Shown piece after piece: positions 22,663 through 29,274 of a stretch of DNA of 64,000 nucleotides; positions within the stretch are counted from its first letter, which is position 1, and every line of letters begins with the position of its first letter. The DNA lies in the NCBI RefSeq assembly GCF_900109225.1, contig NZ_FNZK01000003.1, positions 124,001 to 188,000 on the forward strand, read 5' to 3'. Source of the stretch: Propionispira arboris. GTDB taxonomy: Bacteria > Bacillota > Negativicutes > Selenomonadales > Selenomonadaceae. The notes under the pieces are model-generated. The model made no database searches. It was not told the DNA's origin and saw only the letters and a list, made by a program, of their open reading frames with translations. The position numbers and the translations under genes are program-made.

Positions 22663-23904
22663 TTATTGCAAATCTTCAATTGCTTGAGCAGCACCCATTA
22701 TGCCAATTATTGCATGTTCGAACGTTAATGCGCCTTGCAGGTAAACGATATAAGGTTCTCTCATTGGTCCATCCGCGCTCAGCTCAATCGAAGCACCCTG
22801 GACAAACGTACCAGCTGCCATGATGACTTGATCTGTATATCCTGGCATATCCCACGGCTCAGGCGTTACATAAGAATCTACAGGAGAGTATTTTTGTAAG
22901 CCCTGACAAAAAGCAATTAAACGCTCTTTGGTTCCAAGCTCAATGGCCTGAATGATATCACCACGATCATCTTGCGGGCGTGGCAATGTCATATAGCCAA
23001 GTTTCGTAAAGAGTACGGAAGCGAAAATCGCCCCTTTTACGGCTTGTGCCACAACATGTGGTGCTAAAAACAAGCCTTGGAACAGCAAACGGTTATTGGC
23101 TAAAGATGCACCCAGCTCATCCCCCATTCCTGGTGCCGTTAAACGATAGGAAGCAAGTTTTACCAGATTATCTTTGCCAACAATATAACCACCAGTTGGA
23201 GCAATGCCGCCACCTGGATTTTTGATAAGCGACCCAGCCATGATATCTGCCCCGACTTGTGTTGGTTCCAACGTATCAACAAATTCACCATAGCAGTTGT
23301 CGATAAAACAGATACAATCTTTTTTTATTTTTTTTACGTAAGTACATATGTCTTTGATTTCTTGAATCGTAAGTGGTGAACGCATACTATAACCACGAGA
23401 GCGTTGAATTAATACTACCTTGGTGGTTGGTTTTATCTTAGTGCCTACCCGTTCTAAGTCTACTTTCCCATTTAACATTGGCACTTCATCGTAAAGAATC
23501 CCGAATTCCTTAAGTGAACCGGAACTTGGTTGTTCATAACCGATTACGGTCTGCATAGTATCATATGGCTTGCCAGTGATGGAAAGCAATTCATCACCCG
23601 GCCTTAAAATACCAAATAAAACAGTTGCTAGTGCATGTGTTCCGGAGACGAATTGCGTACGCACCAAAGCTCGTTCTGCACCAAAAATTTCCGCATAAAG
23701 TTCTTCTAATTTCGTTCGGCCGATATCGTCATAGGCATAACCGGAAGTTGTATTAAAATGAATGTCGGAAACTTTTGTTTTACGCATAGCTTCCAATACT
23801 TTTAAGGTATTTTCCTCAGAGATTTCTTCGATTGTTTTAAAATATGGAGCGCACTCCTTTAGCGCCGCTACTTTCATTTGAAGGATTTTATTTGTAAATG
23901 GCAT
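22663..23904 (-). CDS. Methionine gamma-lyase-like PLP enzyme (YnbB family)
   Basis: A 413-residue fold-type I PLP protein of the family sometimes annotated as aluminium-resistance protein. The PLP lysine is in GSLIKNPGGGIAPTGGYI, and CFIDNCYGEFVD supplies the cofactor Asp. The N-terminal TTSGYAYDDIGR and FVSGTHALATVL are typical. Its true substrate is not established, despite the name. It lies 2 bases after hflX on the same strand, an arrangement also known in Bacillus (ynbA-ynbB), so co-transcription is likely. Confidence 0.9.
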   Translation of the reverse strand: MPFTNKILQMKVAALKECAPYFKTIEEISEENTLKVLEAMRKTKVSDIHFNTTSGYAYDDIGRTKLEELYAEIFGAERALVRTQFVSGTHALATVLFGILRPGDELLSITGKPYDTMQTVIGYEQPSSGSLKEFGILYDEVPMLNGKVDLERVGTKIKPTTKVVLIQRSRGYSMRSPLTIQEIKDICTYVKKIKKDCICFIDNCYGEFVDTLEPTQVGADIMAGSLIKNPGGGIAPTGGYIVGKDNLVKLASYRLTAPGMGDELGASLANNRLLFQGLFLAPHVVAQAVKGAIFASVLFTKLGYMTLPRPQDDRGDIIQAIELGTKERLIAFCQGLQKYSPVDSYVTPEPWDMPGYTDQVIMAAGTFVQGASIELSADGPMREPYIVYLQGALTFEHAIIGIMGAAQAIEDLQ

Positions 23905-23906
23905 AA

Positions 23907-25718
23907 TTAAATAGTAGTCTCCTCTAACATATATTTCTTGAATTTATTAATTTCCTCACGAGGAACCGATGCTTTTATCAGTGTTCCAGCTTCGTTGTAC
24001 TGGGTAGATTGTACCATGGCGATTTCATGTAATAAGGTGATGGCACTACCTTCGTCATATGGTATTAATAATTCTAAATTGACATTTTTCCCAGCAAAAT
24101 ATTCTTCGATTTTTGTTTTTAATAAATCGAGATTCATATTTTGTTTAGCTGATATTCCAATACTGTCAGGGGTTGTTAACATGGTTTTTAATGTATCGTC
24201 ATCATTTAGGTTATCGATTTTATTGAATACATTGAGCGTTGGTTTATCCGCTGTTTTTAATTCTCGCAAGACGGTAACAACTGAATCCATTTGCTGTTTG
24301 TAATTGATTTGGCTGCTGTCAATTACATGCAGTAATAGATCAGCACTTTGTACTTCTTCTAAAGTAGCTCTAAAGGCAGAAACCAAATGATGTGGTAGCT
24401 TCTGAATAAAACCAACGGTATCCGTAATGAGAACTTTTTGGTTTGTACTGAGTGTCACCTGCCTGGTTGTTGGATCTAATGTTGCAAAGAGCTTATCTTC
24501 AGCAAAAACATCGGAGCCAGTCAAGGCATTTAGCAGTGTTGATTTGCCCGAATTGGTATAACCGACAAGTGCTACGGTGGATATATTGGAAGACTCTCTA
24601 TTTTCACGATGCAGCTGACGCTGCTTTTTAATCGCTTCAATTTGTTTTTCAATATCATTAATCTTTGAACGAATATGGCGTCGGTCGACTTCCATTTTCG
24701 TTTCTCCAGGGCCTCTGGTGCCGATACCTCCGCCAAGTCTTGATAAAACAAGCCCCTGTCCACTGATTCGTGGCAGTGCATAGCGTAACTGGGCCAGTTC
24801 AACTTGAAGTTTTCCTTCGTGTGATCTAGCTCTTTGAGCAAAAATATCAAGGATTAAAGCCGTTCGGTCGAGAACTTTAATGCCAAGCATCAATTCGATA
24901 TTGCGTTGCTGTGATGGTGACAATTCATCATCGAATACAATCATGTTCGCATTCGTTTCTTGAATCAACATCGATATTTCTTGAATTTTTCCTTTGCCAA
25001 AAAATAAAGCCATATCAGGACGATCTTTTTTTTGGGTAACAGTAGCAACGATTTTTGCTCCAGCGGTTTCAGCTAATTGTTCAAGTTCTTTTAATGAATC
25101 TTCAATTGTCCAGGTACTTTTGGAGTTTGCAAGATCAATTCCTGCCAGGATAGTCCGCTCTTCATCATCTATTGTCATTAGAGCATTATGTTTAGCAAGT
25201 TGTTTATCAATGAGCATCGTCAAATAGGTTAGATTAATTTGGTGGATTTCCGTCAGACTGGTTGGACCTAATCCTTGCAGCTGCGGCACATCATCTTCGT
25301 CATACTCGCCGGTGAAAAAAGCAATACTGGCCAGCATATCGGATCCCTGTTGTCCAATGGCTACCATTGCGTCAAAACGCATACGACGCAATGAGGATAA
25401 ATCAGGTTGACTAAGCCTTGTATCACCGCTTGGATGCGTGTGAATGCAGCGAATGCCAGAAAGCCGTAGTGTTGAGGTCCGTTCTTTTATTTCCGGCAGA
25501 CTGATGGTCGATGTATCACCAATCGCGACTTGCATGACTTTTCCCTGGCGGTTTATATAAACTGCCACTTCACGATTAATCATTTGTGTTATTTCAAGCA
25601 TTTTTTCGTTGATTTCATTAGTAGATATTTGACCAAGCGGTATCTGTAAATCATAAATAGCGTTTAATTGATCTAAAATATATTTTTTAATACCTTTTGT
25701 ATCGCCATGTACTTCCAA
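23907..25718 (-). CDS. hflX: GTPase HflX with an N-terminal JAMM-motif domain
   Basis: Ribosome-splitting GTPase HflX, here 603 residues where about 420-440 is usual. Residues about 195-380 are the HflX N-terminal and coiled-coil region (FFGKGKIQEI, GGGIGTRGPGETK); the G domain starts with GYTNSGKST near residue 386, followed by DPTTRQ, DTVGFI and NKID. The extra N-terminal about 140 residues contain E50, H93, H95, S103 and D106 in the spacing H-x-H-x7-S-x2-D (HTHPSGDTRLSQPD), the metal signature of JAMM/RadC-like proteins. Seen directly: the full motif. Inferred: a metal-dependent or metal-binding domain. The methionine-gamma-lyase-like gene follows. Confidence 0.93.
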   Translation of the reverse strand: MEVHGDTKGIKKYILDQLNAIYDLQIPLGQISTNEINEKMLEITQMINREVAVYINRQGKVMQVAIGDTSTISLPEIKERTSTLRLSGIRCIHTHPSGDTRLSQPDLSSLRRMRFDAMVAIGQQGSDMLASIAFFTGEYDEDDVPQLQGLGPTSLTEIHQINLTYLTMLIDKQLAKHNALMTIDDEERTILAGIDLANSKSTWTIEDSLKELEQLAETAGAKIVATVTQKKDRPDMALFFGKGKIQEISMLIQETNANMIVFDDELSPSQQRNIELMLGIKVLDRTALILDIFAQRARSHEGKLQVELAQLRYALPRISGQGLVLSRLGGGIGTRGPGETKMEVDRRHIRSKINDIEKQIEAIKKQRQLHRENRESSNISTVALVGYTNSGKSTLLNALTGSDVFAEDKLFATLDPTTRQVTLSTNQKVLITDTVGFIQKLPHHLVSAFRATLEEVQSADLLLHVIDSSQINYKQQMDSVVTVLRELKTADKPTLNVFNKIDNLNDDDTLKTMLTTPDSIGISAKQNMNLDLLKTKIEEYFAGKNVNLELLIPYDEGSAITLLHEIAMVQSTQYNEAGTLIKASVPREEINKFKKYMLEETTI

Positions 25719-25774
25719 AAAAACACCTCCTCATTAAATTTTATTTTTGTAAATGTTTTGCATCGATTAAGGTA

Positions 25775-26776
25775 TTACGATTTATTCGTTACATTTAAAA
25801 TACGTTTTAAGGTAATAGACAAAGTTCCATCCGGATTATTATTGAATTCAACAAAATCGGTATTATTAAAATAATCAAGTGGAATCGTAAGTTCTATGCC
25901 TGTATCTGTTTTTAGTTTATGGTTTCGCAGTCGCTTTAATGTAGCTTCTTGTTCCACTTCGACTCGCTCTGGCAAACCAGCCTCTTGGATTTGTTCCATA
26001 TAAGACGCCTGCATGGATGGATTCGATTTGAATATTTCGCGACCTATTTCTTTTGGTTCAACGTTCGGTGAATCTTGTATTGTTTCGGTAATAAACGATT
26101 TTACCGCTGTTGCCGCTACGATATCATCCTGACCATATTCATCAGCAACTTTTTTAGCGATTTTACTAACAAGACTGATTGTTTCCTTTGGTGAAACACT
26201 TTGGCTGCATTCCAGAAGAACTTCAGGAAAAATACTGACTTTATTACCATCCATTACGTATTTTTTATCAACAAAAATTATTGCATCATCGGCTGTATTG
26301 ATAAAAGAAAATTCGTCGATTTTTTGGGATAAATTCGGCATAATAGCATAATGATTGATAATATCATTTTTTACACCTTCATCCGTTTGGATTACCTGGT
26401 GTATAAAGCCCATATGGTTATTGCATTTAAAAACTACAATTTTGCGCTCGTCATCAATTGTGATATCACATACCAGAATATCAGCGGAATCAAGCTGTTC
26501 AGAATGTGATATTGCGGTATAAACCGTTTTGACAATATACTTGGAAAAATCAATAAACGTATTTTCTTCTTTTAAATACAAATGAAGTTGCTCTTTAAAT
26601 GTACTATCCTCGTAAAAAGTTCCTTTTTTGGCATTTTGATCGGCATACGATTTCTCAATATGTTTCAATAAGAAGGTTTCAACGCTATTTTCGACTAATA
26701 ATTCTTGATCTGAAAAAACGGTGAGACCAGAATTAAAATCTAAAATATGCAAAATTGCCCTATGGATAATAATCAA
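25775..26776 (-). CDS. Nucleoid-associated protein, NdpA/YejK family
   Basis: A 333-residue homologue of the 37-kDa nucleoid-associated protein family. The start IIHRAILHILDF, the central FIHQVIQTDEGVKNDIINHYAIMPN and the C-terminal LKTDTGIELTIPLDYFNN fit. A TTG start is used, with GAGGGGA about 6 bases upstream. Role in DNA compaction or binding is known only from distant relatives. It stands alone, 56 bases upstream of hflX on the same strand. Confidence 0.85.
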   Translation of the reverse strand: MIIIHRAILHILDFNSGLTVFSDQELLVENSVETFLLKHIEKSYADQNAKKGTFYEDSTFKEQLHLYLKEENTFIDFSKYIVKTVYTAISHSEQLDSADILVCDITIDDERKIVVFKCNNHMGFIHQVIQTDEGVKNDIINHYAIMPNLSQKIDEFSFINTADDAIIFVDKKYVMDGNKVSIFPEVLLECSQSVSPKETISLVSKIAKKVADEYGQDDIVAATAVKSFITETIQDSPNVEPKEIGREIFKSNPSMQASYMEQIQEAGLPERVEVEQEATLKRLRNHKLKTDTGIELTIPLDYFNNTDFVEFNNNPDGTLSITLKRILNVTNKS

Positions 26777-27725: not shown

Positions 27726-28131
27726 CATAGGGAAAATACTTCCCTTCATAATTTGTCGACAGCCTCAACCACTTTTTGAATTGAAGCATGGTCTTTCAAA
27801 AAATGTTTTTAACGAAGAGGAAAAATAACGATTCGAATCGAAAATAATAAAGCATGCAAGTTTTTTGAAACTATTTATTTTATGTATGGAAAATGTAAAA
27901 TTTCAATGATTTTCAATATTTTTTTATATATTAATTATAGAAAATACGACTTTATATATATTTATTTTAATTATAGTAAATCAAAATAAATTAAATTATA
28001 TATACTTAATTATATTTTTGTATATATAATTTATACATAATCTGCGATATGTAAATTATGCTCTTCTTTTCTAAACTAACAAACAAAAGATGTTCTTACA
28101 AATATTATTACGGTGTAAAGGATTGATTGAA
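27726..28131. other. AT-rich gene-free stretch before the integrase
   Basis: About 400 bases with no credible gene. It holds the left copy of the inverted repeat (27758-27777) and a long run of A/T with many TATATA steps (27880-28040). No clear promoter or riboswitch was recognised. Confidence 0.6.
27758..27777 (+). repeat. Inverted repeat, left copy
   Basis: GACAGCCTCAACCACTTTTT. The copy at 29572-29591 is its reverse complement with one mismatch (16 contiguous identical bases). Confidence 0.75.
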
Positions 28132-29274
28132 ATGTCTTTTGGGCATATCAGAAAACGTGGGAAAAAGTGGTACTATTCATTTGAATTATCAACGGTTGAT
28201 GGCAAAAGAAAACGGGTTGAGCGTGTTGCAGGCACGACAAAAAAAGATGCCGAAAAGGCCTTGCACAAAGCATTATACGAGATGGATTTAAATGGTATAT
28301 TTCGGACATCAAGTGAAATATCATTTGCAGATTTTTTGGACCGTTGGATCAAGCAATACAGTATCAATCTTGCCTATAATACACAAAAAACCTATATAAA
28401 AATCATTGAAAATCACTTAAAACCATCATTGGGCGCTTATAAATTGAAATATTTACAGCCAGAAGTACTGCAGGATTTTATCAATTCCAAAAAAATAAAT
28501 GGTTATAAAAAAAGTACTGTTTCACAGATTTTTGCGGTACTTTCCATTGCGCTCGCGTATGCAGTTCAACCTTTGCAGTATATAAAAGAAGACCCAACAA
28601 GATATATAAAATTGCCAAAATTTGATATAGAAATAAAAGAAGATATACAGCGTAAAATGAAAACTTTGACAGATACAGAACTCACTACCATCCAAAATAA
28701 TTTCAAAAATAGCATTTTTTACATACCGATAATGATTGCGTATCTATCTGGTGTACGTGTGGGTGAGTGTTTAGCACTAGAGTGGACCAGGATCGATTTT
28801 GAGGCAAATGTTTTAAAAATCAGGGAAACTTTGCTAGATACAAAAAGTGGTGAAAGCCGCCGTAATGGACCACCAAAAAGCAAGGCTAGTGTACGCGATA
28901 TCCCTTTCGGACCTACGTTGCGGTCTATTTTAAAAGAAGAAAAGATGAATCAAGTCAAAAATAAACTTAAATACGGGAAATTTTATATAAAATCCGGCCA
29001 AGTGTGTGTGAAAGAAAATGGCGAACCCCTCTCGCATAATGATATACGTTATTTATCTATTTTATGCAAAAAGAAACTGGGAATAACTTTTAATTTCCAT
29101 ATGCTGCGTCATACGCATGCGACGATGCTGTTGGAAAATGGTGCCGACATGCTGGATATATCAAAACGACTCGGACATAAGAACTTGGCAACTACTACTG
29201 ATATTTATGCGCATGTACGTAAAAAGATGCAGGATCGAACTGTCTCTATTTTAGAGCAAATTGTGAATCAATAA
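28132..29274 (+). CDS. Phage/transposon-type tyrosine integrase
   Basis: A 380-residue integrase with the Tn916/phage-like layout: N-terminal DNA-binding region (MSFGHIRKRGKKWYYSFEL), SAM-like core-binding domain (about 60-170) and catalytic domain with Arg in LSGVRVGE, HMLRHTHATML (H-x-x-R), LGHKNLATT and the nucleophile Tyr in DIYAHV. ATG at 28132 has AAAGGA upstream; the in-frame start at 28090 lacks one. Right after the stop are two GGCAAA repeats 11 bases apart, like integrase arm sites. No other mobile-element gene is nearby. Flanked by inverted repeats. Confidence 0.9.
   Translation: MSFGHIRKRGKKWYYSFELSTVDGKRKRVERVAGTTKKDAEKALHKALYEMDLNGIFRTSSEISFADFLDRWIKQYSINLAYNTQKTYIKIIENHLKPSLGAYKLKYLQPEVLQDFINSKKINGYKKSTVSQIFAVLSIALAYAVQPLQYIKEDPTRYIKLPKFDIEIKEDIQRKMKTLTDTELTTIQNNFKNSIFYIPIMIAYLSGVRVGECLALEWTRIDFEANVLKIRETLLDTKSGESRRNGPPKSKASVRDIPFGPTLRSILKEEKMNQVKNKLKYGKFYIKSGQVCVKENGEPLSHNDIRYLSILCKKKLGITFNFHMLRHTHATMLLENGADMLDISKRLGHKNLATTTDIYAHVRKKMQDRTVSILEQIVNQ

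Follow-up and report, generated by a model that had tools for sequence, protein, structure and literature searches.

The locus

In the window, that is, the whole stretch of 64,000 nucleotides of Propionispira arboris DNA that was analysed, a gene on the minus strand encodes an HflX protein preceded by a domain with a JAMM-type metal motif (Table 1). HflX is a well-studied ribosome-splitting factor, and JAMM-type metal domains cut ubiquitin off proteins in human cells. An earlier note, made from the letters alone, had reported a reading frame of 603 residues, and this was confirmed at 23907-25718 (-). Homologues align from the same point as its TTG start, several of them with Met there. The same note had confined the head to the first 140 residues (25278-25718), which proved too short: the conserved extension covers residues ~1-185 (25164-25718), and the part matched by JAMM structures residues ~28-162.

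Table 1. Genes and protein features at the hflX locus (window positions; aa, residues of the HflX protein)
Feature	Position	Strand	Basis or remark
hflX with N-terminal JAMM head	23907..25718	-	603 aa, TTG start
Ribosome-binding-like stretch 5' of the TTG, GAGGAGGTG	25724..25732	-	read from sequence
N-terminal extension, aa 1-185, not in ordinary HflX	25164..25718	-	two alignments; HflX structures match from ~aa 185
JAMM/MPN-like core, aa ~28-162	25233..25637	-	AF2 model pLDDT 88.7; PDB matches mostly ~28-164
E50, predicted acid-base catalyst	25569..25571	-	84/84; role as proposed for AfJAMM (PMC300881)
H93-T94-H95, both His predicted metal ligands	25434..25442	-	H93 and H95 84/84; T94 83/84
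S103, predicted stabiliser of tetrahedral intermediate	25410..25412	-	84/84
D106, predicted third metal ligand	25401..25403	-	84/84
Loop preceding the active-site strand, aa 68-88	25455..25517	-	partly low-confidence model; several residues conserved
C91	25446-25448	-	cysteine two residues N-terminal of H93
Ordinary HflX part, aa 188-603 (N-terminal, helical, GTPase and C-terminal domains)	23910..25157	-	Z 38.9 to 8a57, 35.2 to 5ady
GTPase domain, aa ~379-540	24099..24584	-	MMR_HSR1 381-500; TIGR03156 up to aa 540
Met_gamma_lyase-family gene (ynbB-like)	22663..23904	-	PF06838 E 7.1e-188; 2 bases downstream of hflX
NA37-family nucleoid-associated protein gene	25775..26776	-	PF04245 E 1.2e-40; directly upstream of hflX
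Phage-type integrase gene	28090-29274	+	PF00589; ~1.3 kb beyond NA37 gene start

The gene downstream of hflX, here called ynbB-like after ynbB of B. subtilis, is a probable operon partner; among 99 loci that encode such a JAMM-HflX, 71 have a ynbB-like gene that follows hflX on the same strand within 190 bases. Across these loci an NA37 gene was found upstream in 41 (744 bases off in L123), and lexA, a name tested with Pfam, lies near hflX in 33. At some of the 99 loci none of these three neighbours was seen, and certain flanks do not reach far enough for a decision; at L133 neither the NA37 nor the ynbB-like gene was seen, with 652 bases downstream covered. The neighbouring genes of the 99 loci gave no hint of a substrate for the head. 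The integrase gene of the window possibly belongs to a mobile element.

An ordinary HflX with an additional N-terminal domain

From about residue 185 onwards the window protein is an ordinary HflX. The family model TIGR03156 (GTPase HflX) matched residues 189-540 with 484.3 bits against a cut-off of 216.75. In the full-length structural model (pLDDT 81.0, pTM 0.62), the part that begins at residue ~185 and runs to the C-terminus superposes on ribosome-bound HflX, with the scores of Table 1 for 8a57 and 5ady and Z values of 38.3 for 7yla and 37.6 for the mycobacterial 8vk0, and on human GTPBP6 (7of4, Z 37.9). The predicted fold of this part is that of the E. coli, Listeria (HflXr), mycobacterial and human proteins, and the difference from ordinary HflX consists of the ~185 further N-terminal residues that form the JAMM domain. 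Between the two parts, residues 140-186 have the highest mean column entropy of the segments compared (3.14 bits), a variability that would be expected of a linker holding a tethered head.

An addition at the same end is known from mycobacteria. The N-terminal extension (NTE) of mycobacterial HflX measures 39-58 residues; in M. smegmatis it contacts uL16 and helix 38 and extends as far as the junction of helices 69-71, and several species of Clostridium and Paenibacillus likewise have an NTE-bearing HflX (PMC12493154). The likeness lies in the position of the addition and in its action at the ribosome; in contrast, the window HflX carries a predicted folded domain of ~185 residues, which sets it apart from the mycobacterial type. 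The remark on Clostridium and Paenibacillus was the closest found in the literature searched, and a JAMM domain is not mentioned alongside these proteins in the passages covered. The earlier note knew of no functional description of the fusion; a full-text literature search, with preprints and most subscription papers outside its scope, likewise found none, nor any description of an HflX-JAMM fusion as such. The HflX variant with a JAMM head is real and widespread, and it has apparently not been described before.

Motif, conservation and fold of the head

The JAMM motif has been given as EXnHS/THX7SXXD (PMC300881), and the window protein fits it exactly with E50...H93-T-H95-x7-S103-x2-D106; both the residues and the H-x-H-x7-S-x2-D spacing are those that had been claimed from the sequence. 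When residues 1-147 were shuffled, the pattern H-S/T-H-x7-S-x2-D arose in 8 of 200,000 shuffles. By using 200 genomes related to that of the window, an HflX match at E<=1e-20 was obtained in 121 and none in 79. Of these 121 genomes, 89 entered the alignment and the other 32 were not included; as one genome contributed two proteins, there were 90 rows. Six rows were removed, five since the domain was not found in their flanks (L088, L089, L090, L092 and L093) and L094 since it met a contig end. In all 84 remaining proteins of the window's class, each of at least 580 residues and the window protein among them, the five residues E, H, H, S and D are present, and T94 is conserved in 83. A second set, of named genomes, was drawn from the best 80 of 460 relatives, of which seven loci were dropped for lack of a complete matching reading frame; here the five residues are intact in 74/74 (the window and 73 of the 80 loci). 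The metal residues, whose survival in close homologues had been proposed as a check, are therefore invariant in both sets.

In a wider alignment, 67 intact rows have E50, G59, G67, H93, T94, H95, P96, S103 and D106 as the sole invariant residues of the domain, although among the catalytic residues E50 alone is independent of the selection, since the rows had been chosen by the pattern H-S/T-H-P-x6-S-x2-D. Within the stretch 67-88, each of G67, L74, P75, L86 and G88 is found in at least 80 of the 84 class proteins. Despite these well-conserved residues, the loop at residues 75-81 has a pLDDT below 50 in the model of the head. Insertions of this kind take part in substrate binding in other JAMM proteins.

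The head itself (residues 1-185, 43 sequences) was modelled with AlphaFold2 at a pLDDT of 88.7 and a pTM of 0.86. A Foldseek search of the PDB gave RadC 2qlc as its top match (E 1.3e-3, probability 0.97), with no match at E<=0.001. In a VIA-align comparison 2qlc again came first (Z 7.5, rmsd 3.5, 101 aligned), within 1 Z of the following rows, PfJAMM1 5ld9 (7.0), Rpn11 4cr2 (6.8) and an EMC chain (6.8); these are middling scores, and according to the tool a Z below 8 can mean a common arrangement. By a manual count, 47 of the 50 structural matches listed are JAMM/MPN proteins and three are deaminases, where the assignment of the EMC, 9is6, 9ea4 and 8tyx chains is presumptive and in part follows their titles. 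A profile of the domain matched in the PDB, on the catalytic stretch, AMSH, Sst2 and Prp8 (best E 0.04 for these three) and an Rpn11 homologue (0.31), under a top row (E 0.025) that is an unrelated shell protein, and a search of the PDB with the single sequence gave two matches only (E 0.18 and 1.1), neither of them JAMM. Because the individual Z scores are middling, it is the consistency of the list, together with the motif and the profile matches, that speaks for a JAB/MPN fold. On this basis it is almost certain that the head is a JAMM/MPN+ domain, and the comparison with RadC and MPN folds, as well as the invariance of the metal residues, supports the earlier proposal that this HflX bears a JAMM-type head, which may be a protease or a metal sensor. 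Of the two outcomes that the earlier note had named as refuting it, a fold unlike JAB/MPN and loss of the metal residues in close homologues, neither was observed. A chance motif or an artefact of fused frames, to which the TTG start and a RadC score of 19.6 bits against a Pfam cut-off of 22.1 might have pointed, has a negligible probability and was rejected in view of conservation, fold and the rarity of the pattern among shuffles.

Relation to RadC and to other JAMM proteins

The head had been said to read like RadC/JAB proteins; this resemblance goes no further than the superfamily, and the domain itself is not a RadC. The likeness comprises the top structural match and a profile similarity over residues 51-113, where a comparison of the head with 29 RadC proteins of relatives (30 loci picked by a pattern permitting N or T, minus one duplicate) gave a probability of 65.5% and an E value of 5.9e-5. 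In contrast, the window head reads HTHPSG where all 29 aligned RadC proteins have HNHPSG, and the PF04002 score quoted above, obtained with residues 1-147 alone, stays below the cut-off, so that 'RadC fused to HflX' was discarded as a family name. Among 57 members of the family, RadC matched 33 at E<=1 (best 2.1e-4) and Prok-JAB 50 (best 5.6e-4). The genome of the window has five separate RadC matches, and it contains no second copy of the head domain, the other matches being weak, with E values no better than 0.14, and located in frames of 208-233 residues.

With the JAMM/MPN+ proteins (AfJAMM, PfJAMM1, Rpn11, AMSH, CSN5 and Cap3) the head shares the EXnHS/THX7SXXD motif and the predicted fold, its HTHP being that of the AMSH-like Sst2. 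It differs from these enzymes in its fusion to a ribosome-splitting GTPase, in its weak sequence similarity and in that no ubiquitin-like partner was seen. The RadC-like DinG also has an N-terminal RadC/JAMM-like domain with an E/H/H/D site on a nucleotide-driven machine, described as not studied experimentally, but it is a DNA helicase and not a ribosome factor (PMC11981726). Another bacterial JAMM protein, DRJAMM, cleaves a MoaD-MoaE fusion (PMC8832034), and bacterial JAMM domains can therefore be peptidases.

Distribution, metal-less and head-less copies

A sample of 398 genomes of the phylum contained HflX at E<=1e-40 in 306, and the domain profile matched in 77. Four of these (G297, G395, G460 and G485; E 1e-5 or weaker, frames of 239-323 residues) were set aside as RadC-like, leaving a JAMM-headed HflX in 73 of the 306 HflX-bearing genomes and 233 without a domain match. 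One genome among the 233, G346, has a decayed JAMM head (locus L281) that the profile search missed and that gave E 1.6e-4 in a search of 20 proteins. The other long HflX frames of the phylum were also considered as JAMM fusions and rejected: of L279-L284, five are without a significant match to the domain profile and the sixth is the decayed head. Two of them, L279 and L280 (G247 and G571, family f77), are frames of 740-830 residues extended at the C-terminal side.

Of the 73 head-bearing loci, 62 were examined, the other 11 being eight in the window's own family, mostly covered by the 84-protein set, and G249, G328 and G512. The five residues are intact in 50 of the 62 and not in 12, namely L232, L233 and L235-L237 (f67), L238-L243 (f111) and L244 (f119). 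Conservation of the metal residues, complete in close homologues, thus does not extend to some remote proteins that keep the domain (12 of the 62 loci, and L281). Copies with the domain kept and the metal ligands lost, which may be termed pseudo-JAMM HflX, were observed in four family codes (f67, f111, f119 and f110).

In the class set, two loci of family f1, genus g22 (L088 and L089), have no head, with NA37 just upstream of hflX and the ynbB-like gene just downstream. The same gene order is found at many head-bearing Negativicutes loci (e.g., L131, L137-L140), and both loci group with the head-bearing congener L049 at an SH-aLRT value of 100. The absence of the head looks like a clean natural deletion or, less probably, an assembly error. 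Some lineages can thus dispense with the head, and others retain it without its metal site. The tree was made by a quick method; L185 and L210, both truncated, were set aside before 105 rows were thinned for near-identity to 96. It has nine state changes for JAMM-intact, three for metal-less and 11 for head-less rows, of which starred branches force just three, one and three, and it fits one origin with losses as well as spread by transfer, which cannot be told apart on it.

Among the best 80 of 460 relatives, named records with JAMM-HflX include Selenomonas, Sporomusa, Pelosinus, Anaerovibrio, Megamonas, Mitsuokella, Phascolarctobacterium and the like, together with metagenome-assembled genomes labelled just Bacillota, Negativicutes or by family, and the closest is Propionispira raffinosivorans (99% over residues 1-185). 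Because only these 80 were kept, names from outside the Bacillota are limited to two Fusobacterium records of a plasmid collection. On the 219-kb plasmid pSB029A of F. animalis (153558-155360, locus L316), a JAMM-HflX of 600 residues with an intact motif is annotated plainly as 'GTPase HflX'; the second match is from F. vincentii. The phage records searched gave no JAMM-HflX, and the viral contigs gave a single one, of 607 residues (L315), on a contig that is probably bacterial.

Proposed function and alternatives

The reading that we prefer, with a probability of roughly 0.55, is that of a full HflX with a zinc-dependent (iso)peptidase head, which HflX would bring to the large ribosomal subunit and which would act there. 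In its GTP form HflX would dock on a stalled ribosome at the face of the 50S, and the JAMM head, on its variable linker (residues ~140-186), would be kept close to uL16, helix 38 and helices 69-71. This placement on the intersubunit face is suggested by analogy with the NTE of M. smegmatis HflX, which is attached at the corresponding end and makes the contacts described above. A zinc-bound water, activated by E50, would then hydrolyse a bond, peptide or isopeptide, in a substrate close to the ribosome. Candidate substrates are a protein tail and an adduct formed by a peptide or a small protein, and the cleavage would form part of splitting or clearing the subunit. Catalysis by the head in the lineages with an intact site is likely in our judgement. 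Rpn11 is a JAMM peptidase next to an NTP-driven machine, the proteasome, and the proposed coupling of the HflX head to a nucleotide-driven machine resembles it. In a bolder and less probable reading, HflX-JAMM would be a GTP-gated peptidase that acts on stalled ribosomes and corresponds in bacteria to the proteasomal Rpn11.

The peptidase reading is weakened by the distribution described above. The domain without its metal site in 12 of 62 loci and in L281, and the missing head of L088 and L089, mean that catalysis is not needed everywhere, and most HflX proteins of the phylum (233 of 306 genomes without a domain match) do without the head. The main rival is a structural role, in which an MPN-like head would serve mainly for docking or regulation, holding HflX on the 50S or keeping it inhibited, and the metal, where present, would stabilise the fold without being catalytic, by analogy with the metal-less MPN- subunits of eIF3 and CSN. 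The metal-less lineages retain other conserved residues, such as R57-x-G59 and, in f67, L86-S-G88-x-R-C91, and the enzyme-free mycobacterial NTE aids splitting (PMC12493154). Even so, this role appears rather unlikely: neither E50 nor S103 corresponds to a metal ligand of AfJAMM, yet both are invariant in 84/84 proteins, a finding hard to explain without catalysis.

In a further alternative the site would bind zinc or iron and report metal or oxidant levels to HflX, with the possible participation of C91. This residue is found in 82 of the 84 class proteins and in 49 of the 62 more distant phylum loci, and the lineages that carry JAMM-HflX are mostly anaerobic. A sensor would have no obvious need for S103, and position 91 is L, I or A despite an intact metal site in L185, L186, L202, L204, L209, L234 and Fusobacterium, which leaves a small chance for this alternative. 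Lying near H93, C91 may provide a redox link to the metal site.

A head borne on an RNA-binding machine, with RadC relatives of unclear role, might also cut or trim rRNA or tRNA on the stalled subunit. This has a very small chance, given that the known JAMM activities act on (iso)peptide bonds and that the RadC-like domain of DinG, compared by DALI, shows similarity to metalloproteases and none to nucleases (PMC11981726).

If the head is active, bacterial ribosome rescue includes a hydrolytic step. Should the GTP-gated peptidase be real, a peptide- or isopeptide-linked mark or tail on the stalled 50S would be removed during splitting by HflX, and wherever the head is dead or missing, the lineage would either no longer have the substrate or handle it by a different route; to our knowledge, the removal of such a protein mark or tail is no known step of bacterial ribosome rescue. 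The natural variants, with intact, metal-less and missing heads, make the function testable by comparison, for which L088 and L089 and their head-bearing congeners are a ready pair.

Two copies may also coexist: one genome (G125, contig C1) encodes two full-length JAMM-HflX paralogues, at 2319757-2321532 (L047) and 3553190-3554962 (L048), both with the motif intact.
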